Below, piece after piece: positions 17,770 through 58,686 of a stretch of DNA of 64,000 nt. The DNA comes from Phytophthora sp. 'mugwort' (Eukaryota; Oomycota; Peronosporomycetes; Peronosporales; Peronosporaceae), in NCBI GenBank assembly GCA_033558025.1, contig JAUCEF010000001.1, positions 2,976,001 through 3,040,000 on the forward strand, read 5' to 3'. Both the position numbers and the translations under genes were made by a program. Under the pieces are notes generated by a model that searched no databases, was not told the origin of the DNA, and was given only the letters and a program-made list of their open reading frames with translations. Numbering within the stretch: the stretch's first letter is position 1; each line of letters begins with the position of its first letter.

Positions 17770-18155
17770 CGTAGCTAGTGCATCAGAGGAAGACGTATGA
17801 CTCCCCGAGTCTTAGCTGTGGTTATCCTAACCCCTAAAGTCTCCGCAGAGGCTTAGATCACCCCAGTTATACCACTAGAGACTCAAATAGTCAGTGTTCC
17901 TAAACCTAAGTCAATACTCTCTTTGATGCTAAAACTGAACTGTTCTTTGTTTGCTATATCTGCGGCAAAGCCGCCTGTGGTGTAAATGTATGACTCTAAC
18001 TATCTACGATAGTTTAACCTAGTCAAATGCATATCGGGTGGCCCTGTGGCCACGTACTGAAATCCCGTTAATCCAAGTGGTACCAAGTACCACTTATTAC
18101 TAGGTGACACGTAGCACGGCTACACTCGTGTTACCCTTCGTGTAACCCCGTTACA
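17770..18155 (-). repeat. 3' LTR of element D
   Basis: On the minus strand it begins TGTAACGGGGTTACACGA directly after a G-rich polypurine tract, exactly as in element C' at 58402. The outer end is not sharply defined; similarity to copy A ends near 17766. Confidence 0.7.
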
Positions 18156-18598
18156 CTCTCCCCCACCAAACCGTGGACACATCGTATCCACGAGGGTCTG
18201 GTTGTATCAATCGAAAAGGCCCGGAGCCTTCCGCTCCAAGAGCGCTTCACTGTTTGTTCCGCATCGAGTGTTCACACTCAGATGTCAACAGCCATTGGTC
18301 TTTTGACCTCCCTCGTTCGCCTCGCGATAACAGCCCTCGCCGCGGGTTAAGCCCTTCTGTGTCTCCGACATCTTCGTTATCCTCGTCATCCCGTTGGGAG
18401 AGGTCCCTGGCCGTGCGTCACCCGCACCCTCGCGGCGCTCGGTGCGAGAGTATCACTCAGCGCACAAGCGCTGATACGGTCAAAATACCATGAGTGGAGG
18501 CGGTGAAGCCGCTGGAGGCAGTGTCCCCGAACGCTTTGCGCGAGACCCCTCTTTGACGACCTTGAGGAAGTGAAGAGGAGGTCGACTACACTGAGTCC

Positions 18599-20022
18599 AT
18601 GACCGGTAGTAGCCCTGTCAGCTCGCCGAGCCCGCGCCGCCAACTGTGCGCTCCGAATCCGTTCGAGGTCTTGACTCCACGAATCCTGCGCAATGCGCCT
18701 CCGGTACCCTCGCGGGGAACAACAGATGACCCCAGGGGATCTGGTGTCGTCACCAATCCTTTGGACGAAGTTTAGGAGCAACAGCGCGCGGCTGATCCGC
18801 ACCTCCCACGTTCGAGGCGACCTATGACTCGGCCATTGATTACCTTGCCATGCCATGACTATGGATTTGAACCTCGCGATCCCAGCGAAGTGGCTCACCG
18901 TGCAGCATCGGAGATGCTTAACACATATGTGATTGGGCCGGCGGCCGCAACACCCGACGAGCTCGCCGCGCGAGAATCTCTCAGAGAGAGATACTTGACC
19001 CCTCAAGTGACTACTCAGCGCGAGTACCGTGAGCGCCTGCAAGTGCAAGCTCGGCACGGCTCAGTTCCACCGATGCGGACTTATCCAGTCGTGCTCTTGT
19101 CAGGAAAGACGTCTTGGGACGACGATGGACAGTTCCAAAGTTGGGTGGAAGGAGCTCGCAAGCTCTCTTTAATTGATGCCCTTCGAGCTAGTTTCAGTGA
19201 AACTGATGTTCGAGTCCAACGTCGACTCCGTTTCGACTCGCGAAACTCAAGGCGAAACGCCAATTACCCCCTGCCTACCGGCCTCGCCCCCAGTGCTCTC
19301 TCGCACTCGGTGCTTCTGCTATCACAGCTAGCGGCTCTCACGCTAGTGAGGCCGCTCCTCTTCAAGACCAGAGGGACAGCTCTACTGCTGGCCTTGGGCC
19401 TCCAGCAGCTATTGCCCGGAAGAGCCAGGCGAGCGACGCCTCGGTCGCTGGCCCTTGGGGCTCTGCTGATCGCGTCGATCGAAATCCTCCACGAAGTCAG
19501 GGCAATCTTGCTGGACGGGAACCTCGTACCCCCAAGAGTTCTGTGAGTGAGGATAACACCTCCACTTCACAAGATGCTGGGTACGGTCCTGGCGACGACG
19601 CCGCGCCACTAAGCGCTCCACATGATAGTGGGAAGTTTTCTGCTTATCGAGCAACGGCGGCGGAGGTCGATGACCGGCTGGATCCTCGCGCTGAGAGTCG
19701 CAGTGATCTACTCGTGGTCGACGGGCGGGTGCAGACCCTGTTCGACTCGCTGGAGTGGGCGACGAGTCACCGTGACCGTCTTGCTGACGAGAACGATGCT
19801 GTGCATCATCGGAGCGACTGATTTCAGTCTCCTGTCTCAGTTGCCAACCGCCTAGAGCTCCTGGAGCAGTCCTCTTCTCGTCGCTTCGGAGCGCCGGACC
19901 GTTCGCTCGCTGAGCTACGTGGTCAGTTGGACCTCCTCGTGCTTCTCCAGCGCTTTGGCCAGCCACCGGCTGTGGCACCAAACCCTCCGCGCTCACCAGA
20001 GCCGGGTCTCGATATGGCTTAA
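18599..20022 (+). pseudogene. Antisense reading frame of element D, unknown protein, two stops and one shift
   Basis: Lies on the strand opposite to gag-pol of D. From ATG 18599 the frame runs to about 19270 with one TAG at 18773. It reads Ser/Pro-rich sequence, then a helical domain (AAATPDELAARESLRERYL, then TTQREYRERLQVQARHG). A shift near 19270-19290 leads to a Ser/Ala-rich linker and a coiled-coil region (LLVVDGRVQTLFDSLEW, then TSHRDRLADEND). After TGA 19819 it continues with NRLELLEQSSSRRFG and LAELRGQLDLLVLLQRFG to the TAA at 20020-20022. About 590 bp overlap the integrase-end and chromodomain coding of the minus strand. No family recognised. The last two stops would need only one C-to-T change each. 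Confidence 0.6.
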
Positions 20023-21370
20023 GGAAGCTTACGTACAACACGGGTGTGTACGCATCTTCTTCGGAAGATTGAGGTGTACGCAAGACCCTTCCTGGCCACG
20101 ACCTTAAAAAGTCCAATGAAGCGCGGGCGCAACTTGGTCTTAAAGACCGCAGACACTGCATGTGTAGGCAGTTTTTTTTGCGTTTAATAAAATTTTCTCA
20201 TCCACATTAAACACTTCAACGTTGCTTCTGCCCTTTGCATCAGCCTGTCCCTTCTGAACATCTTGGGTTTGAGCCATTGCATCGCGTAGTTGACGTAAGA
20301 CACTTAAACGCGTAGACACGAACGTGTCAACTTGCCTGCGAACTGCAGCTTGGCTGATATCAGCTAGCCCATCGGCTATTCCTCCCCCACTAAGTCCAGG
20401 GACGCGAGGGTGTGTGAGACCGTTCAAATAGAACGGGGTGAAGCCTATCGAGGCATGCACCGCATTGAGCACTCAACGAGTGGGAGCATGGCGCTCCATT
20501 GCTTGGGTCTGTCCGCACATACACTCCGAAGCATGTCTTCGACAACGCGATTCACGCGTTCCGTCTGACCATCGGTCTGCGGATGGTCCGCTGTGGACAT
20601 ATCGAGTCGAGTGCCGAGCACCTTAAAGACCGACGTCCAAAACTTAACCGTAAAAAAAAAAAACGGGGATCTCGATCCGAGATAATGGCCTCTGGCAGAC
20701 CATGCTGTCGAAAGACACGATCCATGAACAGCGTGGCTGTTAATTTTCCATCGATGGCGTCTGGCACCGCCGTTAAATGAGCCATCTTGCTCAATCGGTC
20801 GATAAGACCACGATGTCCGTGTTGCCCGCCGCATCCCGTGGCAGGCCGAACACAAAGTCCATACTCATGGATTGCCAACACTCCGTGGGTACAGACAAGC
20901 TGGCCAACGGCGCAGTCGAGTGTGGCGAGGGTTTAACCCTTTGACACAGTCTCACACGTGTGTGCATACGTACTAACCCACTTGTAAGCTTCGGCCACCA
21001 GTAGTGGGAGCTCACCGAGCTGTAGGTCTTTTCTCGGCCGAGATGACTATCAAGTGGGGTATCATGTGCCTCATGGAGGATAGATACTTGAATCCTCTTC
21101 GTGAGGAACCACGACACATGGGGTGTCTTCTAGACCAGCACCGTAGTACAACAGGCTATCATCGAGAGTGTATCGATGTAGGCTCGCTCGCAACCGCGCT
21201 GACAGCTTAATATCTGAGTTAACAAACACCGCGCTTCCTAGCGTATGTAGCAGAGCTACGCAGGATTCGTCACGTGCGTACGCAGCGCGGATCGAGTCTG
21301 TCACAGACGAAGTCATCGTCGTGACGTGAGTGGTCTCATAGTCGGGCCTGCGTGATAACGCATCGGCCAA
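19409..21370 (-). pseudogene. Integrase with C-terminal chromodomain of element D
   Basis: Inserts the element cDNA. On the minus strand: the linker start MADALSRRPDYE (21370), a zinc-finger region with HLGREKTYSSVSSHYWWP (about 21050), the core with the DRLSKMAHLTAV block, ISDRDPRF (second catalytic Asp) and DHPQTDGQTERVNRVV (catalytic Glu). Then come the C-terminal FLKPYRDP block and, after a low-complexity linker, a chromodomain (HYHVERLVARRRRQDRTQ, then LVKWRCYPHSQNSW) at about 19480-19630. Frames change several times. The chromodomain normally steers integration to methylated histone H3 chromatin. Confidence 0.8.
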
Positions 21371-21373
21371 GAC

Positions 21374-21987
21374 TGTCCCGAGTGGGAACGGTGGACGCCG
21401 GCTTGGACACGGTCCTAACCGTTCCTCGGGAAGTTCAACGTGCGAGCTACTGTTGGAGGCGCAACTGTATGAAGACGAGGTTGGCGCCCGGTCCCAAGTT
21501 GCACTTTACCGATCCGATTTGCAAGGTTTTCTGGGACGCGACGTTGGATTGTATGGGCGACCGAGGGGTTGTTGTCATTACTGGATCTTGGCGGAGCGGC
21601 GCCCAGGGAAATGCGGCGGGAGCAAGGGACCACTACAGGATGGACGGCATGGAAGGGCGAATTGGTCGACGCCTAGGTACGGATATGACTGAGTCTGAAG
21701 GGGTGTCGCGTGAAGGTCTGGTTTGTACCGTGGTAGTATGCGCGTGCGTGCGTGACTGGTTGGGAGTGCGAGGATGGCGCAAGAAGGAAGAGCGGCGGCA
21801 GGATCGCTCTTGCCGTTCAGGTTTGATTATTAGTCGTGCATTTGCCCGGATTACAACAAGCTGAATCATTGATTTGCATTTAGCTTGGTTGGGAAGTGTT
21901 ATTATATCCTTCGTACACTCGCTTTTGTACTCAGACCGTTCCCATACAGCGCTGGCCGTCCCTTTAATCCGGGGGTGACTCGCGACA
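21374..21987 (+). mobile_element. Solo LTR (614 bp) inserted in element D
   Basis: Starts TGTCCCGAGTGGG and ends GACTCGCGACA, so TG...CA with a 10-bp near-perfect inverted end (TGTCCCGAGT against TGTCGCGAGT). It is flanked by AGAC at 21370-21373 and 21988-21991. The shared flank can also be read as CAAGAC. Removing it restores the conserved QNVLADALSRR linker of the host element. No coding capacity is visible, and the parent family is not otherwise present in the window. Orientation is arbitrary. Confidence 0.75.
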
Positions 21988-22790
21988 AGACGTTCTGCCT
22001 GCCAGGCTTGTACTTCACCTCGAAGTTGTACTCCGCAAAAAAGGAGAGCCAACGGGCCATTCTCTGAGAGAGATGAGCCGACTGCCTCGCAGTGCGTAGA
22101 GACGCATGATCACTGTAGATCACAAAAACGACTTGGAGAAGAGCAGGTGTACCCTGAATTTGACGAGTGCATACTTCATCGCAAGTAGCTCTTTGTCATG
22201 AATTTGATAGTCCTTCCAGGCACCCTTACGCTGGCGAGATTCAAACGCGATCACGCGTTCCCGCCCTTCAGCGTATGCTTGCAACAAAGCACTGTCGATG
22301 GCAAAGTCCGACGCGTCGCAGACGACACTGAAAGGACGATGGGGGTCTGGCAGGGCCAGGATCGGGGCCTGAAGGAGATTCTCATTAATGGCATCAAAAG
22401 CCGTTTGATGTCCGGTATTACAACACCAGTCCACATCCTGCTATAGGAGATTGGACAGTGGCCTTGCCACCTCAGCATAGTTCTTGTTGTACTTCCGCAA
22501 GTAATTGGCCAGGCCAAGCCACTTCCGTAAGTCTTTCTGGTTCTTTGGAACCTGCCAGTCTACAATGGCCTTGACCTTAGCGGGATCCGCTCGAAGGCCT
22601 CTCTTCCCAATGAAGCATCCCAGAAAGGGGATCTCCTCAGCGCCGAAGACACACGTGTCAATGTTGGCATACAACGTGTGTGTGTGCATGCACTCGAGCA
22701 CCGCTCGCAGGTTCTCAATATGGTTCTCCACAAGTCTTTCCATGCTCCGCACGACTATGGACGAATATATCGTCGACGTATGTCTCGCAT
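21988..22790 (-). pseudogene. Reverse transcriptase C-terminal part and RNase H of element D
   Basis: Minus strand. YVDDIFVHSRAEHG (about 22745-22780) is the catalytic YxDD box of reverse transcriptase. LGCFIGKRGLRADPAKVKAI and RKWLGLANYLRKYNKNYAEV form the thumb and connection. RNase H follows with SVVCDASDFAIDSALLQA and the Glu in HDKELLAMKYAL, ending in the AEYNFEVKYKPGRQN linker. The fingers and palm upstream of YVDD are missing. Confidence 0.8.
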
Positions 22791-22799
22791 ACGCCCTGT

Positions 22800-27011: not shown

Positions 27012-27079
27012 ATGCGGACTTGACTTTGCTGATCCACCCTCGTGCACGGTTTTGTCATGGTCCTTGCCTGCGAACTCCT

Positions 27080-28325
27080 TCAGATCCGAGATGGCCAACA
27101 TCTTGACGCGTTGAACCGTCGACGATCTAGCCGGAACGACTGCTGCCGCTGTAGTAGCCGTGCGTCTCGTGGATCCATGTCGAGATCATCAGGATCATAC
27201 TCACAGTGCTCGGGGTGGTGACCTTGGGATCCACCGATTCCGTGTCGACGTCCTGCGATCCATACCACTCGTCGGCTCCTGGGCTGGATCGCTGACCGGA
27301 CCCGGGCTTGTGACGGTCTCTCCGGACGCGGAGCCGGGATCTTATCTTCCAGAGTGCTCGCAGAACGTGACTGCAGCATCGCGGCACCGGGCTGGCCCAA
27401 GCGACATCAGTCGTTTTTCCGATCAACTGCTGGATCCGACATCTGACGTAGCCGACGCGTGCTGCAATGATCGTGTGTGGTATACTCCGGCGACCTGGTG
27501 TACGCCGCCTTGGTCTCGGGCGACGAGACGTATCCCGCCTTGGCCTCGATTGTCGAGCTGTGCTCGGTCTTGGTCTCGGGCTGCAGCCGCCGATCGCTCG
27601 CCCACGAGGGGATTCAGCAAGTTGAAGAGCGACGCGGCCGAGATTCGGATCGCATCGGCGTCCAATTGGACAGGTCGTCAGCTTCGAACGCTCCTGCCGT
27701 AAGGCCGGCCTCTTCCAGCATCCTCAGCAGGTCCATCGCGGCGTCCAGCTTGTTTGTGGTTGACGACGGGGGCGACACAGGTCCGATGAGGTATCCGAGC
27801 TGCTTCAGCTGCAGGATCCGCATCACTGGGTCCTTGCGCAGGAAGTCGTTCAGCTCTATACGCACGTACGCCGACTCCAGCTTAGATCGTGACCAGGTAG
27901 ACTTCATTTTATTAATACAGCATGATCTTCGTCATCCGAGCCTGGTGCCTTGAGTTTCTTTCGTGCGGCCTTCGTCTTCTTCTTTGACGTGGCACTTGAG
28001 GCCGCTGGGGTGGTGGTGGAAGATCATTCGCTCTCGCGAACGATCCTTCGTCCGGCAGGTCCTGACTCGCGTCAAGACCTGCGGGGGTCCCCGAAGGGAC
28101 CTGGGGAGGAAAGCTAGGTTTCGCTTCCTGATCCGTTGCCAGAACATCCTCTTTTTCGTCGGCAGAGCTCCTCTCAGGGCTCGGCCGATCCGTGGATCTC
28201 TCTTTCAACGACGCCGTCGGCGTTTCATCTCCCGATCCATTGCTCACTTGCGCATCATCTTGGGACTCACGGTGAAATCCCGCGTCGCCAACAGATCCGG
28301 GCACGTGCACCGTTGTGGTGGACAA
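27080..28325 (-). pseudogene. Gag N-terminal part of copy A'
   Basis: Same pieces and same frame breaks as copy A: an acidic/Ser-rich start from 28325, then a frame with FLRKDPVMRILQLKQLG (27614-27907), then shifted Arg/Ser-rich readings to 27080. Zinc knuckles are beyond the truncation point. Confidence 0.75.
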
Positions 28326-28350
28326 ATCCGCTGAAATTCAGTGGGGTCCC

Positions 28351-29212
28351 AACTCACACGCACTGCGCCTAGACACCGACTAACGGAGGGGGTACTCCAA
28401 CGGCTATGTTGTTGCTGAGTGGTTCACCTTGTGTACCCGTCGCGAGCTGGTACTGCTCTCTCGTTGACACGAGATGCGCACTTGGTGGGCCTTGGACGTC
28501 CTTGTGGGGACTTGGGAGGGAGTGGATCCGTGCGGGTATTCCTGCGCATGGGATCCGGTGTCTGTTTGGTCTTGAGCTCTTGCGTAGACCTTGTGGATCC
28601 GTAATATAAATACGGGATCCGGAGTTGTTCCTTCTTGAGGGTGTCCTTGCTCCTTATCGGAGTTGTCCTTGCTCCTCTACGGTGCTTGCCGCCTCCAATA
28701 GCGGGATCTTGAGGGGGGGGCTGAGAAACCAAAGGGCGAGCGCGACCTGGCCAAGCTATCCTAGGGCTGCCACGTGTGCAGGAAGATCGCCAAAGTTAGA
28801 CTTGATCTATGAGTGTGGTCAATAGAAATCCCCTATACAATAGGCGAGTCTGTCTTCCAGTGAAAATTCGGTTCTGATTTATGCCTTATCCTATCTACCT
28901 TCGGATCCCATCCCAAAACATATCCTAAGGACTAATCATAGCCCAAGATCCCATATATGACCCTCTCGTGGTCAACCGTCTCCACTCTACCTCGATTTAG
29001 CTACATATCGTTTACCAGATGTGCACTAAACTGATCGGATCCAATACTTAGGATCTGATCCCACGGGACGGGTCCAGGATCCGTACCATATACAGACCAG
29101 GCTTGTCGGATGGTCCGGATCCATCACCTTAACGCTGTTATGGCTGCCGCTGGCGACGTGGATTTTCCAGCTGCCTGTCAACCTCCATCTTATCCGGATC
29201 GGCAATACCACA
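28351..29212 (-). repeat. LTR of family B (copy A')
   Basis: Inverse of the LTRs at 13013, 37823 and 50266. On the minus strand it starts TGTGGTATTGCC. Its poly-C tract is 8 bases, seen as G at about 28713-28720. Confidence 0.85.
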
Positions 29213-30238
29213 ATGTCACCAACCTGCTTCATCACTGATCTTCTTCGTATGGGGTCTTTGCCGAATGGGACACAGACACGACTCGATACCCCTCCCGCCC
29301 ACCTCCACTTTCATTATTATCGCAGCGACAAACTACCACAGGACCCAAATTACGCCCACCCGCTCTACCAAGACAGCCGTTATTAAGCACGGCCCTTAGT
29401 GAGCACCCACCGCAACGATTAGTTTTTCATTGGATGAAATGTTCGTTTTCATAGCTTCCGATTGGAAGAATAAATACCAAAACCCAATATTTTGTTTATT
29501 ATTTCCGCGCTCACTGTAGCACTAACAGCTGTAGTACTGTCTGTACATGCAAACGTTGAGGTGTGATTTATAAATTATTGTATTTATTTGTGAGCGTCAC
29601 ATGATATGTCCCATTTTTTGCAAATCGACCGCTTTATAGGCTCTATGTATACGACGTAGCCTTTTTATCTTATATAAACAGAACGTCAGTCCGATTTATT
29701 GTATCCCAGCCCCTGTTCATATATCACATGTTGCCGTCGATTTAGCGTCAAATCGCTTCGAATGCCCATTTAACACTGGACATTCGAGGTCATCGCTATA
29801 TATATAAACGATGTCGATGTCGCTAGTATCATTTTAAACAATTGATATCTATTCGTATTGCGATTGCAAAAGCTTAAAATGAATACGTATGCATCTCTCA
29901 AGTCTGTTAGGAATGAAAATGTCTTCATTTGGGCCCAGTATTTTGCTCATTCGAGACTCGATGCGCGCAAGGCTATGTTAATAGCGGATCTATAAAAGCT
30001 CGTGGTGTCCTATGCCTTAGATTTGCACAATGGACGTTTTACATCCAGAGCACCGATTTAATTTTTCTCCTACCCTGTTTTAGTATATTTTTTACCCATC
30101 CAAAACAGCCTAACCGAGCTGGACATATTGGTCGGTTTCACAGTACCGTCTTTCGTTGAAGCCCGTCCACACTCTGGCAATGATCATCACTCTTCTGTCA
30201 ACTTGTTTTTGGATGTCGCAAACCAGAAGGAGCAAAGT
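29213..30238. other. AT-rich intergenic region before the hydrolase gene
   Basis: No gene or repeat recognised. Base composition turns markedly AT-rich from about 29400. TATA-like stretches occur at about 29796-29806. The promoter of the downstream hydrolase should lie near the right end. A short open frame upstream in frame with the hydrolase (from about 30128) lacks an ATG start. Confidence 0.5.
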
Positions 30239-41602: not shown

Positions 41603-41619
41603 CAATGAAAAGCTGTGGT

Positions 41620-46367: not shown

Positions 46368-46762
46368 GTGGTGCATGCGTCTAAGTTGAAGCCTGTGAGG
46401 GCCAACTGTGTTGTTGGTCGATCAGGGAATGTTTTCTCATTTCCCGATCGACCAACAACACATTTGGCCGTCGATGAGGCGGATCGTCTCGACTTCGACG
46501 AAGCGCTGTTACCTGAAGACAGCTGGGATCGAGAGCTAGAAGAAGGGGAGTACGAAGTCGGGAAGATCAGCGACATGAGGTCGGGTCGTCGAACACGTTA
46601 TGGACGATCACTGCGCGAGTTTAAGGTACACTGGCGAGGCTAGGGCAAACCCATCTGTGTTGATGAGGCGGATCTGAACTGTTGGGTGCTATTACGTGAG
46701 TTCCTGCAGGATCGGGCCAAGAAGAGTCGTTTCCAGGCGATGCAGTCGTACGAGGAAGCTTA
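46368..46762 (+). pseudogene. Chromodomain-like tail of the element B integrase
   Basis: Frame 46368-46643 reads EEGEYEVGKISDMRSGRR and YGRSLREFKVHWRG. After a TAG it continues VDEADLNCWVLLREFLQDR to a TAA at 46760. The YEVxKI..., LxxFKVHWRGY...WVDEADL pattern resembles a chromo-type barrel-helix. It follows a perfect-looking hairpin sequence at 46400-46469. Confidence 0.6.
46400..46469. repeat. Long hairpin-forming inverted repeat in element B
   Basis: Arms 46400-46429 and 46441-46469 are inverse complements with one mismatch and one bulged base, around an 11-base loop. The core of the left arm is TGTGTTGTTGGTCGATC. It lies in coding sequence just before the chromodomain-like tail. Confidence 0.9.
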
Positions 46763-47228
46763 AGTGGTGGAAGCCGCGGCAGCAAACTGGCTGCTGCAGG
46801 CGGTACTGAGGTTGAAGGCTTGCAGAAAGGCGGCAAGTGTGAAGGAGGAGGATCCGCGTTCACTATTTGATGGTGGACGTGACGAAGTTGGTAGAAGATC
46901 CGCGGGAAGGCCGTGAGAGAAGATGAGGGAGGCTTCCCGCCTGGCGAGTTGGTCGCCACGGCAGATGAAGCGAGAAAGAGGATGCAGGGAGGCTGCATAC
47001 CTAAAGATGGAGAGGAGAATGAGTGTACATGTAAGGAGGAGGCTCGGGTCTGGTAAAAATGCTAAGCTCGCTACAAGGATCGCGGATCCGACGATGAACG
47101 GAGGATCTAAAAACGTTCAAGATACGACATACTCAAGCCATATTAGCCGAAGCAAGATGGATATTGAATGGATTACTACATGCAAGACGGATCGCTACCG
47201 CTACCAAGTTAGTGCCGTACGACGTAGA

Positions 47229-50163
47229 CTACTCATGATCCGGAGCAGGCGGAGAAAACTTCATGCGAAGCCGGCTGATCTGGCGAGACGGATGAGAAGT
47301 CGGATCCGTGCGGAAGTGATTGCGCCACGAGGCGCTCCTATCGCAGTCCGCGAGAGTCGCGGTCAGATCTTGGGGCGGATCCCGTCCCTCTGCAACCGTC
47401 TCGCACCCGGGGAACCACGTCGTGTCTTCGGATGGCAGATGGAAGTCCATGAACACCAGATCTAACAGCAGATCCAGGTCGCAATAGCCCGTCCGGTGAG
47501 CTTTTTCAGAGATCTGATCTTGCAGATTCCGCAACTTGGCGCGAGCGTGCGAGCTCCGATTCTTGCGTCCATGGTAGAAGGACGCGAACCACGCGCGTGC
47601 GTCGCGCTCGGATTTGGGGATCGGGAAGGAGTGCGTAGCTTCCCAGTAGGCCTGACGGTGATCATCCTCGTAGGCCCGGTACTCGTGGCGAGTGCTGCAA
47701 CCTCGGCGGATCTGGCTGGATCGACGGTCAGCGGCTCCAGGGCTGGTACGTCGAGGGCCTTCCACGGCTCCTCCCTGTACAGAGCCATGATGTCCTCCGT
47801 TGTGTGCAGGCTCAGAGCGTAGCGCAAAGGACCAGCTGCCCCCGCGACCGGCCCGCTCAGGGAACATCCACCTTGCCAAGAGCACCCGGTGGTCAATCAG
47901 GATCCGGGGCGTGAGGGTATCGAGAGTGAGCACACGAATGTGGGAAGGATCCCAAGGTGCTACCTCTTCCGTGATCACGATCCGCGCCTGATGCAAGCCG
48001 AGGAGAACGCTATCCGCCGGACCGAACGGTTGGGAAGCGGGATCCGTGGTGGGTGCAACAGCCGGACTGGGTGTGCTGGCCGCTTGGGTCGCGCCTTCTA
48101 CCTCTTCCTCCGCTTCGGCAGAGATCAGATTTTGGCCGGCCACGATGGCGTAGCTTGAGATCCCTCGCTACCGGAGTCCCCCGCGGAAAAGGTGCGTCGA
48201 TGGGCGTCGGATCGGGATCGCGCCAGAGCCACTTGGAGCTCGTCGTCGTCAGAGGCGTCGAAGATCGCATCCGAGTCGACAGGCTCGGCGTCGGATCCAC
48301 TGCAGCTAGAGCTGGAGCCGGGGTCGGAGCTAGATTCGGATCCTGTGCCTGGGAACTCATAGTCTCCATTGCCGACCTCAGCCGCGGCGTCGACCACGAG
48401 ATCCAAGGAGGATCCTGGTTGTTTTTGAGCATTGGAGGATGACGGTATAGAAGGCACCTTCGAGACCGATCCTGAGGCAGTTGCGCCGTTTACCGCAGGG
48501 GATGAGGAACGAGGCACTTTCGTCGGCGGACTCAGATCCTCGTGACGCGGAGAATCGGGTGGACTCAAGGGCAGCTTGGAAGGGGCCTGGTCACTGCGAG
48601 CCACAGAAGTAGACCGAACGCTACGTGGAACCGACGAGCTCCGCATGGCGCCGAGGCGATCGACGCTAAGTTATCAAGATCACTGTCTCGCTCCATGACG
48701 GCCGAGTCGTGCTTGCCGAGCAGGCCTTGGCGATCTCGCGACAAAAGTTCATGCTGACCGCGGAGTCGATCAAGAGCTTGGCGGACCACCTGGTACGCTT
48801 GCTACATGTCGGAGATCTGCTCAAGGAAATCTCTCTGCGCCTTGAAATATCGCTGCCCTTTCGTATTACCTCGTCGAGATCCAGGCGCGCCTGATCGCAT
48901 TCGCTGGTGAGCTGTGTCGCTTGGGGCGTCGCCGATTCCAGATCTCGCCAAACTTGAGCGCTGGCGTAGACCTTGATATTAGCGCGGGTCACCTGACACT
49001 GGTCTTCTTGAGCTCCTGAGCGATCGTGTCGCGAGCAGCCTCGAGTGTCTTATTATCCACGCGAAGATTACGGAGCTGGTCCTGCGGCAGGTGCAGCGAA
49101 TCTTCGTCACGCGCGTGATCCCGATAGGCTGCTCCCAGCGAGCGCTTTAGGCGCTCGAGCTAGATGCTCGGGCAGCATCTAGCTTGCCCACGGTATGATT
49201 GCGAACACGGTGAAGATCCGCGTGGCGACGCTAAGCCTTGTCAAGGAAACCCTCCAGCTAGAGGATCCGCTCACCTCGAACGTGCAGCTCGATCCGTGCA
49301 GCATGCAGATCTGCCGCAGGAACCTATCCGTCGAGCCGTTGGTGCACTTGGTGCAGCTCTTCCCGCAGTCCCTGAGCTTCACACCCCAGATCACGGACAT
49401 GCTGCTTCCGCTGTTCATGGCTGCGTTGGAGATCCGCAAGGTCCTTCTGGAGGCAAAAGAGACCCATGAACGCCGTGTCGCGCTCGGATCGAGCTGACAC
49501 TGCTGCTCGAGGTTGGTGGATTGTGTCGCTTCAACCCGGTCACTTTATCTCGCAGATCCTGCAGACCCTGGGCGAGGGAAGGAGCAGCCCTGGGCGGATC
49601 GGCTGGCCCGGCACTGCCATGGTCGGATAGACGACGATCCAGACCGAGGGTGTAGTCTTGCAGGCGGGCGTATGCCTCCGCGCTGGCTCCTTTACCAAAG
49701 CGTAGCGCGCTCGCAGACCACCGAAGCCCTGGACATCCACGCGGAGATTGTCAGTTTCCTGGCGCGCTTCAGCTTCTAGCAGTGTAACTTGGCGCAGTCG
49801 AGCTTGAATGACGTCGTAGCGGTGCTGGATGAAGTCCACGAACGCGCGAGCAGTCGTCCAGTTGGGCTCGGCCAGCGCGTGGAGTTCCTCGTTGTGTCGA
49901 CGCGCGGCAACCAGATCCCGCATGGCTTGCTGATGCTTGGCCAGCAGCTCGTCGTAGGCACCAACGAAGGTGTGGATCGACGTTGCCGCGGCTCGCAGTG
50001 GATCCAGATCCAGCGCCAACGGTGTTGCAGCCGCCGAAGGATCCGACGGTATGTGGTCACAGTGCGCGCATGGAAGAGGGACGTCCGGAGAAAGGCCTTG
50101 TCCGGCGAACACGGCAGCCCAAGGCGTGGCGTCAGAGTCATGGGCGTGGTGCGCAGACGACAT
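47229..50163 (-). pseudogene. Antisense gene of element B, about 970 residues, unknown, frameshifted
   Basis: Reads from ATG 50163 toward the integrase, opposite to gag-pol. The first 600 bp encode a Cys/His-poor N-terminus and coiled coil (YDELLAKHQQAMRDLVAARR; VDFIQHRYDVIQARLRQVT). After a shift near 49690 the coil continues (EAYARLQDYTLGLDRRLSD; LADLQRSHEQRKQHVRDLG; ALDRLRGQHELLSRDRQGLL). A Ser/Pro-rich, acidic middle follows (48125-48646). The C-terminal region has a distinct fold-like block at about 47.25-47.85 kb (LHTTEDIMALYREEPWKAL; AYEDDHRQAYWEATHSFPI; ARAWFASFYHGRKNRSS; YCDLDLLLDLVFMDF). At least five frame changes. No known domain recognised. The consistent protein-like character over nearly 3 kb argues against chance. 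Confidence 0.65.
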
Positions 50164-50265
50164 GGTACAGAGGCTTGATCAGGTTGGATGGCGGTGGGTG
50201 GAATTGTGGATCACGTGACACAGTGTGCTACCGTTGCGCGGTGGTCACAACGTGTCAGAGGCGGT

Positions 50266-51125
50266 TGTGGTATTGTATATCCGGATAAGATGGAAGTTGA
50301 CCGGCAGGTGGAAGATCCACGTCGCCAGCGGCAGCCATAACAGCGTTAAGGTGATGGATCCGGACCATCCGACACGCCTGGTCTGTATATGGTACGGATC
50401 CTGGACGCGTCCCGTGGGATCAGATCCTAAGTATTGGATCCGATCAGTTTAGTGCACATCTGGTAAACGATATGTAGCTAAATCGAGGTAGAGTGGAGAC
50501 GGTTGACCACGAGAGGTCTTATATGGGATCTGGGGCTATGATTAGTCCTTAGGATATGTTTTGGGATGGGATCCGAAGGTAGATAGGATAAGGCATAAAT
50601 CAGAACCGAATTTTCACTGGAAGACAGACTCGCCTATTGTATAGGGGATTTCTATTGACCACACTCATAGATCAAGTCTAACTTTGGCGATCTTCCTGCA
50701 CACGTGGCAGCCCTAGGATAGCTTGGCCAGGTCGCGCTCGCCCTTTGGTTTCTCAGCCCCCCCCTCAAGATCCCGCTATTGGAGGCGGCAAGCACCGTAG
50801 AGGAGCAAGGACAACTCCGATAAGGAGCAAGGACACCCTCAAGAAGGAACAACTCCGGATCCCGTATTTATATTACGGATCCACAAGGTCTACGCAAGAG
50901 CTCAAGACCAAACAGACACCGGATCCCATGCGCAGGAATACCCGCACGGATCCACTCCCTCCCAAGTCCCCACAAGGACGTCCAAGGCCCACCAAGTGCG
51001 CATCTCGTGTCAACGAGAGAGCAGTACCAGCCCGCGACGGGTACACAAGGTGAACCACTCAGCAACAACATAGCCGTTGGAGTACCCCTCCGTTAGTCGG
51101 TGTCTGGGCGTAGGGCGTGTGAGTT
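50266..51125 (+). repeat. 3' LTR of element B
   Basis: Starts TGTGGTATTGT after a weak purine tract (AGAGGCGGT). It joins, at the shared GTGAGTTGAGTC, directly to the inner part of the C' LTR. Confidence 0.85.
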
Positions 51126-51460
51126 GAGTCACTCTTCAGAATGATGTACCTAAGTACCCTAAGTGATGTGGCCAACATCACTATGGCGTCACGGCAACGA
51201 CATCACGGATATGTACCACAGTGATGGTACAAAGACCTCAGAGCCACCCAATAGGATAACATCTAGGATAATTTATAGGTGTCCAATAATTAGTATGTAG
51301 ACGCATTAAAAGGGGCCACCTATAAATATATTCAGTCTTGCATCTACCTAATTTTGGTAACAGTCCCACAGGCCAGGAACTACTGAACTGCAGTTCACGG
51401 GAGTTTGTATACTCTCCGGAAGTCACACTTCCTGTGCGCAAGGTGTTGTGTGCCCCGTCG
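51126..51460 (+). repeat. 5' LTR of element C', left part missing
   Basis: Co-linear with 58402-58686 and 34698-35197 from the word AGTCACT onward; the TGTAACGGGG start is absent. It contains a CRE-like TGACG/CGTCA region and CTATAAATATATTC, a TATA-like element shared with the LTR of C. Ends CCCCGTCG. Confidence 0.75.
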
Positions 51461-51530
51461 CACTTGGTAACACTTGTAGTCAATCTACGCCTACTCGGGT
51501 TACCACCTAAAAAATCTGGGTTCTAGCAGC

Positions 51531-52290
51531 ATGGACCGGAATGAGTTTCCTCATCTGAATGACTCACAGTTTGAGTCCGTTCGTGAGATGGCTGGCATCT
51601 TTGGCATGGATGCCTTGCACAGCTTGGCGTCGTCGACGCAAGCTGAGCAGGTCAAGCGCGTGACCGCATTCGACATGTACGAGCGGGGGCTCATCGAACA
51701 TATTCGGAGCAACCTGCAAGTTCCGGCCGCAGAGCCGAAACCGGTCTACCCCAAGCCATTGAGGCTGAAAGTAAACACGTACTAGAGAAAGGAAGGTAAA
51801 AACCTTCACTTCTGGGTGCGAGAGGTAGAGCTCGCAATGGATGCGACTCTCATCTCTTCGGAGCACCTCTGAGTGGTTTTCGCCCTCTCCAACCTTAGCG
51901 GGCGTTCTAAGAGTTGGGCGTATATTAGGGAAGCGACAACACCTGGATGCTTCGTATCCTGGGCTCAGCTCTGTGAACGGCTTAGAGCCGCGTTCCTCCC
52001 GGCGAAGTATGAGTACCACCAGCGGTCACGCTTTCTGTCATGTAAACAGGGAAGACGTGAGCTGCACGAGTACATCCAGGAGATGCGGAAGCTCACCGCA
52101 TCCCTCGTCGGATACCCACTCCATGAACACATCAAAGTGACGTGTTCATGGACGGCCTAAGAGTAGGTCCTGCCGCACCCAGCTGTTTCAGGTGCAGACC
52201 AATACTCTGGAAGACGCGATCCAAGTCGCCCTCCAAGAGGAGTACAGTTACCGCCAGGCGCGCACGCCGGCGGCGAGAATGCAAAGGCAA
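51531..52290 (+). pseudogene. Gag of element C'
   Basis: ATG 51531 (MDRNEFPHLNDSQFES). First frame to TAG at 51783-51785, then EGKNLHFWVREVELAMDA up to TGA near 51868, then SKSWAYIREATTPGC and FLPAKYEYHQRSRFLSCKQG. Shift near 52140; TNTLEDAIQVALQEEYSYRQ then ends at the deletion point near 52290. Confidence 0.7.
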
Positions 52291-52570
52291 CGGGACAGTT
52301 TCAGTACAACTGGCCGATGGAACGGTGATTATCGTTCCCAAGATCCAATTGGATCTAGCTGTGAAGTTCCAGGACTTCAACAGCATGGAGCAGTTTACTG
52401 TCCTAGGGATGGACAAGTATGCCTTGATCCTGGGTATGCCCTGGCTCGAGAAACATGAGCCATGGATAGATTGGCGAAACAAAGTCATCGATGCCAGCCG
52501 GCCCGCAGTTACTGACAGGGCATTGGTGAGTCTTGTCCCCACCTCTACCAGGAACTGGGGCATCCGATAG
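52290..52570 (+). pseudogene. Protease remnant of element C', active-site half deleted
   Basis: Only the second half is present (TVIIVPKIQLDLAVKFQDF, then LGMDKYALILGMPWLEKHE). The DSGA half found in element C at 36420-36440 is missing. C sequence from about 35995 to 36500 has no counterpart here, and the two sides meet at an AAAGCAAAGGCAAC-like word. Confidence 0.75.
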
Positions 52571-52603
52571 GGGCGCCGGGATGCAGAAGCATCCAGTGAA
52601 GTT

Positions 52604-53470
52604 TTGGGACCCGCCGACGTATTGAGCGACTCCCTAGAAGCTGGGGCAGCAGAAGCGGGGGCAGCAGAAGCTGCACCTGGTCGAGTGCGGCAGTCCGTAC
52701 AGGATAGCCCTCGACCCTCGCCAGAATCTGGACCGGTGGCTGAGACTTCAAGAGTGGCGGTGCTCGGAGGCACCGACCAGGTGGGTAGCCTAGGTCCACA
52801 CCACGTCACCCAGACAGAAACTGGCGAGGAAGACGTGCGTAACCATGTTCTACACCGAGTCACCCAGACAGAAACTGGCGAGGAAGGCGCAGAATGCGTT
52901 TCCTGTGTGGGTAACTGGGTAACCTTGTTCCACACCAGGTCGCCAGACCATAACTGAAGAAGAAGTGGCGGAGTGTACTTCTTGTGTGGGTAACCATGTT
53001 CCACACGAAGCCCTAGAGGCTTTGGACGTCGTCAATGAGACGTCTACAGACGTGGGTAACGAAGAACCACGTCACGGTCGTCGTCGACGACATAATCGAC
53101 ACCGCAAGTCGAGTCTGAAGTCATTTCAGACTGGAGTCGTTTCAAGCGACTCGGAACCCAGGACCCTGGTTCTTTCGACGCGGCCAGTCGAAGAGTGTTA
53201 TCACATCTTCGACGGCGAGACCGGTCAGCGGGTCAAGGCAGGCGGCATCCAGCTAGAGCCGTTGCCAGAGATGTCAGAGCTCCTGAACCTCGAAGAGCTC
53301 ATACCAACAGATTTCCTGGCCGACCTGAAGGCAGAAGAAATCGCGGAGGTGGTACTCTTGAAGCAAGAGTCCACTCGCAGAGGAATTGAACTCCTCCTCG
53401 GTTATGGACGAGAACGTCCTGAAGGCATTCTCCTCCCAGCGTGACTCACGCTTAGATTCTGAGATTCCCA
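52604..53470 (+). pseudogene. Post-protease spacer of element C'
   Basis: Two or three diverged repeats of a phrase containing THVTQTETGEE/VTQTETGEEG at about 52800-52880, then VGN-VPHEALEALDVVNE. The last part, ELLNLEELIPTDFLADLKAE, matches element C. No enzyme domain. Confidence 0.5.
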
Positions 53471-53518
53471 AGAACCCGAAAGGATCCAGTATATCCTTTA
53501 ATAAAGGAGTTCGAGGAA

Positions 53519-54360
53519 GTGGTGCCCAAGGATCCCCCGTCTCAACTCCCACCGGATCGTGGGATCAGGCATGAGATTGATCTCGTGCCGGACACAAAGT
53601 ACGGTGTCACCAGACAATGGCCATTGCCTCGAGAGCAGTGCGAGGTCATTGATGCCTTCTTCGCTGCAAAGGCCAAGGCAGGCATGGTGCGGGAATCGAA
53701 ATACCCGCACTCGACGCCAACCTTCTGCGTTCGGAAGAGGAATGGGAAGTGGCGTCGGGTTCATGCTTTTAATAAACTGAACAGCGCAACGGTGCCGGCC
53801 CAGACACCCATCCCGCGAAAGGATGTGTTGTTAAACAACATGGCCGGGTGCGAGTTATACAGCGCCCTGGATCTGGTGGATGGATACTAACAGATCGTGA
53901 TGTGCGAGAGCGACACCCGCTCACCGCAGTGAGCACCCTGAGCGTTATGCTCTGGTAGTGGCTGTTGATGCCACAGGGCCTGTCTAATGCCCCGGCGACG
54001 TTCAATCACCTGGTCACGCAGTTGTTTAGACCACTGCGTGCGTACGCACAGTCGTACTTCGACGACATCGTTGTCCATAGCCGTGCCGAGGGAAGCAAGA
54101 CGGATATGGAGGTGCATTTGGAGTACGCCGTCGAGTGTAGGGAGTCATGAGAGCGAACAAGCTCTATGCCAACATCGACAAGTGCGTCTTCGCGGCGTAA
54201 GAGATCAAAGTTCTCGGTACCTTCGTTAGCAACGTCGGCGTTCGAGCCGACCCGGAGAAGGTCAAGGCCATTTCGGCTTGGCCAACACCAAGTTCCCAGA
54301 AGGACCTAAGGAAGTGGTTGGGCTTGGCTAACTACCTCCATAAGTAACAGCGAAGGGTAC
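53519..54360 (+). pseudogene. Reverse transcriptase of element C'
   Basis: KYPHSTPTFCVRKRNGKWRR and VHAFNKLNSATVPAQTPIPR are fingers motifs. ELYSALDLVDGY is followed by a TAA at the point where family members continue YQI. MPQGLSNAPATFNHLVTQLF (53965) and SYFDDIVVHSRA (about 54053) hold the palm with YFDD. Thumb: FVSNVGVRADPEKVKAI and RKWLGLANYL. Stops at 53888, 54150 and 54345. Confidence 0.85.
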
Positions 54361-54378
54361 GCGGGTCTGGCTAGACCC

Positions 54379-54900
54379 TTGTCGGATCTTCTAAACAAAT
54401 ATACTGACTGGCACTGGGGGCGTGAGCACCAGGAAGCCTTTGACAATCTCAAGGCAAGCCTTCAGAAGGCGCCTGTCCTGGCACTGCCGGACGAGACGAA
54501 GCCATTCAGCGTCGTTTATGATGCATCCGATTATGCAATTGGGTGTGCATTGCTACAGCACGATGCAGCAGGACGTGAATGAGTGATCTCGTTCAGTCCA
54601 GGCCGCTCAAGGCTGCCGAACGGAACTACCCCGGAGCTGCTTGCCGTGAAGTACGCCCGTGTCAAGTTCCAGGCACCTCCTGGGCTCACTGCCCTTTGTG
54701 ATCTACACAGATCACGCATCCTTACGGACGGCGACAAATTCGCCCCATCTGTCCTAAAGATGGCAAGGTGGCTGTCCCTCTTCGCGGAATATAACTTCCG
54801 CGTCGAGTACAAGCCTGGTAACTCAACGTGCTTGCTGATGGGTTGTCACGCAGGCCGGACTATGAGCTGGCGCACACAAGCCGTGCCACGACCGATCTGT
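54379..54900 (+). pseudogene. RNase H of element C'
   Basis: HQEAFDNLKASLQKAPVLAL, FSVVYDASDYAIGCALLQHD (first Asp), then after a TGA near 54580 the ELLAVKYARVKFQ block (Glu) and MARWLSLFAEYNFRVEYKPG, the end of the domain. The expected Asp in the LVYTDHASL motif is out of frame near 54710. Confidence 0.75.
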
Positions 54901-54959
54901 ACGATAAGATACGCATGGCGTATCGGGGCGATGAATCCCTGGCACCTCTGGTGCGTTTC

Positions 54960-56035
54960 CTGGCCGCTGACAAGGAAGCCAAGGTCAAGTGATTCACGCC
55001 ACGCCAGAGAGCCCGGCTTCGTCGATACGAGTGGGTTGATGGCCTGCCCTACTATCGAGTAGAACCTATGAACACCCACGGGTAGTCGTACCAAACGACG
55101 AGGATGGCAAGTTGGCATCCTTCAGGAGGTGCACGATGCGCCGTCCAGCGGTCACTTGGGCCGCGAGAAGACCTTCCAATCGGTTCTCAGTACTTTTGGT
55201 GGACCCACATAAACAGGTGGGTCGCACTGTACATGAAGACATGTGAAAACATGTCAGAGGGTGAAACCTGCCGGGCACGTCTCGACTCCCTTGTAGAGCC
55301 TGCCCGTTCCAGCGGACTGCTAGAAGTCGATGAGTCTGGATTTCATCTTCGGACTTCAATACGACGGCCTCGGAAACACAGGCATCTTGGTGTTCGTGTG
55401 CCATCTGAGCAAGATGGTCGTCTTGATCCGGTCAAAGACCCACTGACCGGGGAACAGGCTGCGAAGCTGTTCCTGGACGATGATGACGTTTTCCGCTATC
55501 ATGGCCTGCCGGAGACAATTGTCTCCGATGTGACCCGCGATTTACCGCTGCGTTCTGGCGAACGCTGTTCCAATTACATGGAACGAGGCTGCACATGTCC
55601 ATTGCCGATCATCCTCAGACGAATAGACAGACGGAGCGTGTCAACCGAGTGCTTGAGGACACTCTACGCAGTGTCTGTGCTGAGGCTCCTCGCACTTGGT
55701 CAGAACGCCTGTCCGTAGTTGAGTTTGCACTCAAAAATGCTGTTCACGCATCGACTGCGTATATCCCATTCTATCTGAATGGCTAACGCCATCCACGGGT
55801 GCCGCTCACGTTGCGAGGCAGCACCCCGTCTTCAGTTCTAAGTGGGGGAGAGGCTCGGGCAGCACTTTCCTCTCAGGTTTCGGACATGAGACCGGTTTCC
55901 TTGCGGAAACAAGTGGAGTCTTTTATAGACACCAGGCTAAACGTAATCAGCCGTGTCCGTGATGTCATGGCAGCGGCACAGGACAAACAAAAGAGTAGTA
56001 TGACAAGAATGGAAGGGGAAATTTGAATGTGTTTA
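54960..56035 (+). pseudogene. Integrase of element C'
   Basis: Zinc-finger region in shifted pieces (SGHLGREKT block seen across frames near 55150), core first Asp near 55340 out of frame, IVSDVTRD second Asp (about 55525), and DHPQTNRQTERVNRVLEDTL with the catalytic Glu (55595-55786). The C-terminal part VSLRKQVESFIDTRLNVISR is at 55799-56026. Four or more shifts. Confidence 0.75.
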
Positions 56036-56759
56036 ATTTGGGTGAGTTAATCCTACTAGACACTAAGAACTTGCTACTCGCCATGGTAAGCTCCGTTGGG
56101 AGCAACAAGCTGAAGCACCTCTTCATTGGCCCTTCGCGGACCTAGCCAGGCATGGTGCGGCATATACCATTGACCTGCCTAAGTCGATGACGACCCACCC
56201 GACGTTCTACGTGGGCCATCTGCCATGATCCGCAGGGCTCACAGGTCCCAGCTCTTCAAAACGAGGCTGCGACCCTTCTCTCTAAGCCCAGGTCTCTTGT
56301 GGGGCTGCGGAAGGGGCTCCATACGAAGGAACCCAGGTTCAATACGCCGAGTATGAGTCATAGTGATACGGCTGGGAGTACGCAGGAGTCGCTCCCCCTG
56401 GGCCACAGGTCGCCGGAGGTCCCGAAGGAGGTACACCTCCCGCTGGACTCGGTCCATGGACACCCAAAGGGCATCCAGACGTTGGAAGACCTCATTCACG
56501 TCATTTGTACGGCAGTCGACCCGACCTTCAAGGGCCAACAAGTCGTCGGCCAGACGATTCACGTCGTCACGAATCGGCCCAAGGATCCCAGCGCTCCCGG
56601 CCTGGGCGGCGGCAGTTCCGCCCTCACCAAGTCCAAGCGCAATCTCAAGGACTCGACGACGAAGAACTGCGTCTTCAACGACCGAGATGGAGCCGAAAGC
56701 GGCACACCAGGTCCTGAGCCGGACCGGAGGGCGGCGCCTCATACTCGTACTCGTTCGAG

Positions 56760-56925
56760 GGCACCACTCCCTCTCCTCGATCGTAATGAGGAGACCCACT
56801 ACCACGTGGAGCATGTGCTCCGGAAGCGGTGTGTTCACGGGAAGCGCCAGCTCCGCGTGAAGTGGAGGGGGTACTCGGAAGCTGAGTGTTCCTGGGAGCC
56901 GTACGAACGGCGCAGGCTGACTGCT
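56760..56925 (+). pseudogene. Chromodomain of the element C' integrase
   Basis: ETHYHVEHVLRKRCVHGKRQ followed by LRVKWRGYSEAECSWEPYER is a clear chromodomain (three-strand sheet and helix, aromatic cage positions Y, W, W). It is in an open frame from 56299 to 57126 in which only this part looks like Ty3/gypsy sequence. The opposite strand is open across it too. Confidence 0.8.
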
Positions 56926-57761
56926 CGAAGGCTGTCGCGATCTGGGAGCAGAATTGGCGGCGGCTTCGTAAGTAGTTCGGGCTTTCTTGCCCGAACGGGG
57001 TGTGGCCGTAGAACCAAGACCATATCCGCGCTCATCATGAGCGCTAGAAGCGGAATGCTTCTGCAGTTCTTGAGAGAGCTGCCGTTTGCCTACCACATGG
57101 GCAAACTTAATACGCAAATCTCGTAGGTCAAGGATGGCCTCCAGGTGAGATCCTGCCGGTGAACCTCGAGTTGTCCTTGTGAGCAGCGCGTAGCTGCCAC
57201 TTCCAAAAGACGATCTCGGCCTTTATGGAAAGAGTCATAGTGTGGGGCATCACGGTTGGATAGCCCCAGCACAGGTCGCAGTCCGGACCGGAGCTCTTGC
57301 CTACTTCGTCGGCTCGTGAACTCCTTGAGGGAGATGTTGTGCGGTGTCGGGAGCATGCATCGAGCAATGCTCATGTTCTGAAACAGGGGCTGATTAGCCA
57401 CCAGATGGCGCTCTGAGCGCCCCGAAAAGAGCGGCCGCCAAGAAGCACACGAGGCGGCTGAGGCTGACCCATGTAGGCGTCGGCTCCGTGGGACTCCTCA
57501 GGAGGGAAGTACCCGGGAGCGTAAGGCGGTCCCCGACGAACAGGTGAAGAGTACTTCACAGGCGACCGAGTCGCAGGGCCCGCAATTCCTTATGAAGAGC
57601 AGCCTGGTACTCCGACTGCTGCCCGTCGAGATCGTTGGAGATCTCTCGGCCGCTTTGGCCGTCTTCCTCCTCATCGGAAGAACTGAAGAGGCCCTTGTTC
57701 GTGAACGTGATGGTCCCATACCTTTCACGGATTGGAGACCGGGAAGCAGCCTACCGCTTTC

Positions 57762-57830
57762 GGCTGACTTCCGAGGCTGCTGCAGCCTTCGCAGCCTTGA
57801 CGTGGGCTGCAGCAACCTCGGAAGTCAGCC
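57762..57830. repeat. Hairpin-forming inverted repeat in element C'
   Basis: Arms 57762-57787 and 57805-57830 match at about 24-25 of 26 positions around a 17-base loop (left arm starts GGCTGACTTCCGAGGCTGC). On the minus strand the hairpin encodes an Ala-rich helix. Confidence 0.85.
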
Positions 57831-58401
57831 CCAGTGAGCGTCAAGTTCTTGACCAGAGAACGAGGTTTATTTTCGTCCTCCTTGGGTGAGCCCGGGCTCT
57901 CTGGTGCTCGGGCATCTTCGGCGCGTCGCCATCGTCGCCGTGATGGCTAGACAGCGGGGTACGGGACCCAAGCGAGTCTGACTGACTCGGGTCGCCGTCA
58001 GACCCTTGACGAGCGGATTTTGTATCGCCCCAGGACATGGAAGGCTTGTCCGAGTTCTCCTCAGGCGTTTAAGTGCCTTAGGGGTCACCTTGGATGCCAC
58101 CTTGGTGGGTCCCTTAGCGGTCAAGCCTTCGCCAGATGGCTTAGAGCTCTTAGCGTGCTGCTTGGAAGCAACAGGCTTGGCAGGCACTTTCGCACCGCTG
58201 CCAGACCGAGTCTTGGCCATGTTTGAGATGGACGTGGAGAAGAAGAAGAGCACGAGAAAGTGCTCGGGCTCAAACGGAAATGAGCCGGCTGCGGAAACTA
58301 ACTGCAGCGAAGTCGATGTAATTCGATTTGGAGAGTGAAATGGGGCGACTTCCTTTCACTCGCCCTGAATGGCCGGTAAACCGAACCTACGTGGGGGAGT
58401 A

Positions 58402-58686
58402 TGTAACGGGGTTACATGATGAGTGCCAAGTCACTATTCAAAATGGTGTACCTAAGCTAAGTGATAGCTACATAATATATGTAGCCAACATCACTGTGAC
58501 GTCACGGTAATGACGTCACGGATAGGTGCAACACATATGGTACAAAGACCTCAGAGCCACCCATAAATCTACCTAATTTTGGTAACCGTTCCCCAGACCA
58601 GGAACTTGTGAACTGTCGCTCGCTGAGAGTTTTTATACTCTCCGGATGCTACACTTCCTGTGCGCAAGGTGTTGTGTGCCCCGTCA
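58402..58686 (+). repeat. 3' LTR of element C'
   Basis: TGTAACGGGG...CCCCGTCA, 285 bp, directly after the polypurine tract. Shorter than the 5' copies because a segment around the TATA-like box is deleted near 58565. Confidence 0.8.

Follow-up and report, generated by a model that had tools for sequence, protein, structure and literature searches.

We analyzed a stretch of 64,000 nucleotides from Phytophthora sp. 'mugwort' (contig JAUCEF010000001.1, positions 2,976,001 to 3,040,000 of the forward strand; hereafter 'the window', numbered from its first letter) that contains three Ty3/gypsy retrotransposons, B, D, and C', each with open frames antisense to gag-pol at its 3' end. Judged by position, copies, constraint, and homologues, these frames are protein-coding accessory genes in B, in D, and in the type represented by a full-length element elsewhere in the genome (L069), and they probably are in C'; the support from homologues in other species covers the L069 type, B, and D. 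The genes are located in two Ty3/gypsy groups, that is, the chromoviruses (D, C', and the L069 type) and B. We lean toward the interpretation that they are the elements' own genes and likely make an oligomeric nuclear helper that would be transcribed from the side of the 3' long terminal repeat (LTR) and act in trans.

Position and copies of the antisense frames

A preliminary description of the window placed a coiled-coil-rich gene opposite gag-pol at the 3' end of each of the three elements. The frames are indeed located at these 3' ends, with the orientation of the elements set by matches to sense pol plus RNase H or chromodomain matches:

49543 to 50178, minus strand: B antisense gene, N-terminal piece, first ATG at 50163 (open frame with copies, homologues, and constraint)
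48128 to 48670, minus strand: B antisense gene, Ser-rich/acidic piece (open frame, composition)
47232 to 48167, minus strand: B antisense gene, 3' piece, 312 codons stop to stop in the window copy (open frame, genome matches)
57870 to 58355, minus strand: D antisense gene, Lys-rich N-terminal piece, ATG at 58220 (open frame, composition, constraint)
56242 to 57222, minus strand: D antisense gene, C-terminal piece, opposite the chromodomain (open frame, genome matches, homologues, constraint)
18776 to 19543, plus strand: C' antisense gene piece (open frame, genome matches, orientation pairing, constraint from one pair)
19207 to 19818, plus strand: C' antisense frame in another phase (open frame; likely continues the preceding piece past a frameshift)

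In the window, all three elements are degenerate copies whose antisense genes are split by stops and frameshifts. The description 'opposite gag-pol' fits D and C', in which the antisense frames overlap the chromodomain end of pol; it does not fit B, in which they lie 3' of all of the pol domains that can be placed. The first ATG of the B gene (50163) is 102 nt from the 3' LTR, and in B, D, and L069 the antisense gene starts 0.1–0.25 kb inside of the 3' LTR.

In the genome searched (86 Mb, 154 contigs), four antisense open reading frames (ORFs) of the window, from B, D, and C', have 136–157 matches each; these are pieces, not whole copies, and are 34–100% identical among the matches listed. Where an RNase H match is found at most 4.5 kb away, the antisense match lies 3' of it on the other strand in 40 of 43 pairs (D, 13/14; C', 19/20; L069 type, 8/9), at a distance of 1.8–3.2 kb; two of the three exceptions are on the same strand, and one is opposite but 5'. 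The pairing used all 150 of the 150 scored RNase H matches (from 1179 candidates), together with 117, 99, and 34 of the 153, 157, and 67 antisense matches; the window's own copy (D, C') and apparent further pieces of loci already counted were left out. An element nested in reverse orientation is rejected because of this fixed 1.8–3.2 kb, 3', opposite-strand placement in 40 of 43 pairs.

Antisense additional ORFs between pol and the 3' LTR (aORF-3R) have been described in plants and fungi, for example, Grande gene23, RIRE2, Retand, PvRetro13, and the fungal Boty; the Grande product is nuclear, and the PvRetro13 product has an SMC domain (PMC7264820, PMC11963269). The antisense ORFs of plant Retand carry TRP28 domains (PMC11963269). 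The oomycete frames share with aORF-3R the antisense orientation to gag-pol, the position at the 3' end near the 3' LTR, the many copies, and the conservation as protein, which in C' is only suggestive (PMC7264820, PMC11963269); they differ in the host, an oomycete, and in having no match to TRP28 (PF04195). The word 'antisense' occurs nowhere in the main text of the paper on the oomycete Chronos and Archon elements (PMC5348765), and no antisense retroelement gene from an oomycete is reported in titles and abstract openings within the part of the open-licence literature that was covered. This class of accessory gene is already known from plants, fungi, and retroviruses; what the present analysis adds is the oomycete host and protein families without a Pfam match at cut-off in the scans made.

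Coding constraint and the encoded proteins

The ratio of nonsynonymous to synonymous substitution (dN/dS; Nei-Gojobori method with codon bootstrap) was obtained from codon-wise comparisons of copies in each of the six frames. The 95% intervals resample codons only; pairs have sequences in common and are thus non-independent, and the neutral decay that follows insertion dilutes the ratios. The mirror frame, that is, the frame on the other strand that uses the same third positions, shadows the true frame and is usually richer in stops.

The L069 element is a full-length chromovirus with LTRs that are 97.9% identical, a gag with one stop, and a pol that is open for 1791 codons. Its antisense ORF is uninterrupted (447 codons stop to stop, 432 from the ATG) and starts 126 nt inside the 3' LTR. 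In a sister copy, L071, the gag frame is open (357 codons, with retrotransposon gag and Ty3 capsid matches), and a TGA interrupts the antisense ORF; in L072 the antisense ORF has no interruption. The possibility that the antisense gene is Gag read backwards is rejected because L071 encodes Gag separately in sense.

Twelve divergent copies of the L069 type (L073–L084) were sampled, six of them in a regional analysis and eleven singly (L081 was left out). In the region that pol does not overlap, the antisense dN/dS is 0.22 (0.12–0.37) against the six copies, and the antisense frame has 0.19 stop codons per 100 vs 2.7–6.2 in the other five frames; taken singly, 11 of 11 copies have the antisense frame as the lowest of six (0.17–0.30). 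In the overlap with the pol tail, the values are 0.55 (0.35–0.84) for the antisense frame and 1.03 (0.70–1.63) for pol; in the overlap with the linker of pol, they are 0.46 (0.23–0.73) and 1.15 (0.73–1.79), with antisense values of 0.36–0.53 in 10 of 11 single copies (the eleventh, L084, has only 12 codons there). Between these two overlaps, pol is constrained in the chromodomain (0.16, 0.09–0.35). The B antisense frame has dN/dS of 0.30–0.53 in all nine segments, some of which overlap one another, and is the lowest of six frames in eight (144–237 pairs per segment). The D antisense frame has 0.41–0.80 and is the lowest in 8 of 10 segments; in a sliding scan, an antisense-strand frame is the lowest in 11 of 14 windows, with several near ties. 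Because constraint is also found in segments outside the search queries (ORFs of L016, L025, L054, and L058), it is not an artefact of choosing loci by protein similarity.

The preliminary description took the repetition as a sign of selection, not chance, and named confinement to degenerate copies and neutral evolution as outcomes that would speak against it. The 136–157 pieces per ORF, the 40/43 orientation, and the codon constraint bear out selection; neither of the two adverse outcomes occurred for the group as a whole: ORFs without interruption exist in L069 and L072, homologues of the L069-type, B, and D proteins are predicted in other Phytophthora, and dN/dS is low, with the evidence in C' only suggestive.

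Homologues of the L069-type protein, the B N-terminal piece, and the D piece were sought at E<=0.001, with ~8000 candidates scored for each. The L069-type protein has at least 31 homologues, the best from P. fragariae (66% identical over 93% of the length) and others from P. rubi, P. fragariaefolia, P. nicotianae, P. sojae, P. infestans, P. capsici, P. megakarya, and P. idaei. For the N-terminal piece of B there are at least eight (P. pseudosyringae, P. fragariae, and two metagenome records). The D piece has at least 46, of which 23 are from P. cactorum and others from P. idaei, P. infestans, P. nicotianae, P. ramorum, P. palmivora, P. fragariaefolia, and one Aphanomyces stellatus record. The last of these (P0040), on a 6.9-kb contig of a species from a distant oomycete order, is the top D-type match (53% across 72% of the query); it may reflect contamination or transfer between species. 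Four D homologues (P0041, P0043, P0049, and P0055) are labelled 'ATP-binding cassette (ABC) Superfamily', although Pfam gives no ABC match; the label is probably a propagated naming error that further members of the 46 also carry.

None of the antisense proteins scanned reaches a Pfam family cut-off; one B homologue, P0037, has a precomputed PF15294 match. Transposase_28 (PF04195) is absent at E<=0.1 from 31 L069-type and 27 D-type members, and it has no match in B pieces at E<=0.01 or in the window B and C' pieces at E<=0.1. A single antisense family for all of the elements is rejected, with profile-comparison probabilities of 0.1–0.4% in four of five pairs (L069 type vs D, 0.4%; vs B, 0.1%; vs C', 0.2%; D vs B, 0.3%). 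The fifth, D vs C', gives 12% (P 0.0024, one of five comparisons), so kinship between these two proteins is only suggestive. The B profile contains the N-terminal piece only, and on this comparison that piece appears to have no detectable kinship to the D or L069-type proteins.

The shared plan comprises an N-terminal part, folded or charged, and a flexible part that is basic/RS-rich or Ser-rich; B and the L069 type add a predicted coiled coil. The heptad periodicity of B is matched by 0–3 of 200 shuffles in four sequences, in agreement with the earlier term 'coiled-coil-rich'; that of the L069 type is matched by 12 of 200, and a helix is predicted at residues 330–390. The AF2 model of the L069-type protein has a helical domain (residues 31–180, pLDDT 79–94 by tens), a disordered RS-rich linker (187–325), and a long helix (330–390, pLDDT 91–97); a structure search with this model gave no fold match of note.

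This layout fits the map of constraint. In the L069 pol, Pfam places an SH3 domain at residues 1396–1460 (L069:3244-3438) and the chromodomain at residues 1604–1675 (L069:2599-2814), with a linker of 143 residues between the two and a tail of 116 residues after the chromodomain; the antisense stop codon (3234-3236) falls just short of the SH3 domain. Opposite the antisense helical domain there is either no pol or the unconstrained tail of pol; the chromodomain is located across from the disordered linker, and the unconstrained pol linker across from helix 330–390. In another gypsy family with SH3 and chromodomain, L070, only 30 residues separate the two domains and 10 follow; this contrast is one comparison between two families.

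Possible roles of the antisense products

In the interpretation toward which we lean, the antisense transcript would start from the 3' LTR side, as composition and analogy suggest, and its product would be an oligomeric, probably nuclear, helper associated with nucleic acid or chromatin. This helper may act in trans on the expression of its own element, on RNA handling, or on the integration complex, and so might work like retroviral HBZ/APH and plant aORF-3R products such as that of Grande gene23 (PMC7264820). The likeness to HBZ/APH lies in the start at the 3' LTR side, the antisense strand, and the accessory nature of the protein, and HBZ contains a coiled coil in the form of its bZIP domain (PMC10186651); no bZIP match came up for the oomycete antisense proteins scanned, and the elements are unrelated.

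Several observations weigh against this interpretation. Among the 29, 29, and 1 copies of B, D, and C', respectively, that were read besides the window, none had its antisense gene intact. The antisense dN/dS is 2.79 (1.80–4.30) in the chromodomain overlap of L069 (six copies), and the ninth B segment is tied with its mirror frame. Another frame is lower in two of ten D segments, that is, L025:420-840 (L025 seems frameshifted; L016 gives 0.55 over a comparable stretch) and L017:339-678 (sense frame, 0.72 vs antisense, 0.80), and a sense frame is the lowest in 3 of the 14 D windows, two of which cover the chromodomain while the third (57480-57181) does not. For C' there is one pair of copies, with dN/dS of 0.59 (0.40–0.98) vs 0.61 in the mirror frame, and constraint is only suggestive. 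Heptad periodicity fails the shuffle test in D (64/200) and in the C' piece (161/200), to which 'coiled-coil-rich' does not extend. The nuclear location is a guess from composition alone, and neither a fold nor a Pfam match indicates a biochemical role. Finally, L070 has no antisense ORF of at least 120 aa wholly 3' of pol in the next 1.4 kb, and a single 143-aa antisense ORF straddles its pol end (no LTRs were found in the L070 sequence analyzed); the antisense gene is therefore no general need of chromodomain-bearing gypsy elements.

Four other explanations were weighed. The antisense protein could be a component of the particle or the pre-integration complex, acting with Gag or integrase as a coiled-coil scaffold or nuclear-import factor; the predicted coiled coils of the B and L069-type proteins, the basic segments, and the overlap with the chromodomain end of pol are compatible with this role, but L071 encodes a capsid-matching Gag separately in sense. 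It would also be unusual for a particle component to come from its own, antisense transcript, and we judge this explanation unlikely. Somewhat more doubtful is a counter-silencing factor that blocks small-RNA or chromatin silencing of the element by the host. Small RNAs that match LTR retrotransposons are abundant in P. infestans, some needing a Dicer gene (PMC3522703), so there is something to counter; in addition, the antisense proteins evolve faster than reverse transcriptase (RT) and contain basic stretches. The searches, however, revealed no homology to a known suppressor, and the constraint indicates function but not which one.

Two further explanations would deny the protein any role. 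Regulation by antisense RNA only, with an incidental open frame, could draw on the antisense transcripts that LTR elements are known to yield (PMC7264820) and on the small RNAs of both strands that map to P. infestans gypsy elements (PMC3522703); it leaves the codon-level constraint of the antisense frame unexplained, as well as the protein homologues elsewhere over at least 90% of the length and the domain-like predicted structure, and we consider it very improbable. Chance or shadow ORFs, arising from pol codon usage in GC-rich DNA, do occur: L069 has an antisense ORF of 344 aa opposite RT (L069:5368-6399, plus strand), and the 5' region of D has one of 299 aa (52135-53031); L069 also has a long antisense ORF of 395 aa opposite pol (L069:5894-7078, plus strand). 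The 344-aa ORF has dN/dS of 1.39, 1.59, and 1.14 where pol has 0.11–0.22, and the 299-aa ORF has 0.97; an open frame alone is therefore no proof, which is a warning for annotation by open frames. In contrast to these two, the 3' antisense frames are constrained even where pol is absent or unconstrained. The dN/dS values refute chance for the L069 type, B, and D, with weaker evidence for C', and for the group we give this explanation almost no credence.

Returning to an accessory gene that belongs to the element, we tentatively propose, as a possibility short of an even chance, that pol and the antisense gene of oomycete chromoviruses have become interdigitated: the unconstrained pol linker (143 residues) and tail (116 residues) would be there to carry the coiled coil and the helical domain of the antisense protein, with the chromodomain carried opposite the RS linker. 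Combined with the antisense gene of B, which is unrelated and belongs to an element with a plausible dual RNase H, this arrangement would mean that the association of an antisense gene with an additional RNase H, as in plant Tat/Retand elements, recurs in oomycetes. If so, a trans-acting antisense helper would be a recurrent solution for large Ty3/gypsy elements. The overlap of pol and the antisense gene offers a clear case of DNA shared by two genes through alternating constrained and unconstrained segments. Antisense accessory genes are extended from plants, fungi, and retroviruses to oomycetes, with direct evidence for selection at the protein level; they explain several proteins that Phytophthora annotations call 'hypothetical' or name wrongly, and the long-standing question of the role of antisense proteins in retroelements becomes testable in another kingdom.

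Elements B, D, and C' and neighboring sequences

The elements were placed by self-comparison, protein matches (tblastn with the L007 pol as query), and Pfam scans:

37822 to 38688, plus strand: B 5' LTR (direct repeat with 50266-51126)
43172 to 43468, plus strand: B reverse transcriptase piece (RVT_1, E 1.8e-14)
44036 to 44380, plus strand: B RNase H domain (RT_RNaseH_2, E 5.5e-15)
44481 to 44729, plus strand: B possible second RNase H (motif seen by eye only)
45573 to 46022, plus strand: B integrase region (tblastn match of L007 pol, E 1.8e-9)
50266 to 51126, plus strand: B 3' LTR (direct repeat with 37822-38688)
51146 to 51460, plus strand: D 5' LTR, approximate bounds (51166-51250 and 51342-51459 match the 3' LTR, 86–87%)
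53483 to 55933, plus strand: D pol, RT to integrase, several broken frames (tblastn with L007 pol, E 2.3e-147)
56800 to 56907, plus strand: D chromodomain, in ORF 56191-57123 (PF00385, E 1.8e-8)
58470 to 58686, plus strand: D 3' LTR, approximate bounds (matches with D 5' LTR)
19472 to 19627, minus strand: C' chromodomain, in ORF 19412-20197 (PF00385, E 2.3e-10)
20392 to 22783, minus strand: C' pol, RT to integrase, broken frames (tblastn with L007 pol)
22135 to 22413, minus strand: C' RNase H domain (RT_RNaseH_2, E 8.2e-26)

A chromodomain is located at the C end of pol in D, C', and L069 (PF00385 in all three), which places them among the chromoviruses, as the preliminary description had D and C'. 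The pol sequences of D and C' are 42–70% identical to that of L069 over RT/RNase H and form a single chromovirus group with it, whereas B is distant (29% identical over one RT stretch); the 'different lineages' claimed earlier hold in part, in that two lineages are shown, not three.

Element B spans 37822-51126, and its LTRs are 98.0% identical over 866 columns. It had been described as having a dual RNase H, of which one domain is clear; the second (44481-44729) is plausible but unconfirmed, with an RNase H domain as its sole solved-structure match (weak, E 0.11) and no match in the Pfam scan. An rve_3 match (E 0.042) lies inside 45306-46136, and a chromodomain-like stretch was seen by eye at ~46600, although a Pfam scan of 46332-46640 gave no match. 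The Chronos elements of oomycetes have a dual RNase H (gypsy RNase H followed by an archaeal-type RNase H) and a chromodomain after the integrase; B agrees with them in its host group (Peronosporales) and, at the level of a motif, in the dual RNase H (PMC5348765). Profiles do not confirm the second RNase H or the chromodomain of B.

Element D spans approximately 51146-58686, and its short LTR pieces are 86–87% identical; at 51250-51342, its 5' LTR has ~80–90 extra bases relative to its 3' LTR. LTRs were not found for C', whereas those of B, D, and L069 were; against another copy, L085, the homology of C' starts at window position 17757. Partial copies of the B 5' region are located at 13010-17745 (plus strand) and 27012-29216 (minus strand), with the LTR-proximal part 95–99% identical to B; the first of these stops ~12 nt from the start of the C' homology. 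Outside the retrotransposons studied, the plus strand has two long open frames at 1756-4758 and 5554-7908 (1000 and 784 aa), which are perhaps host genes.

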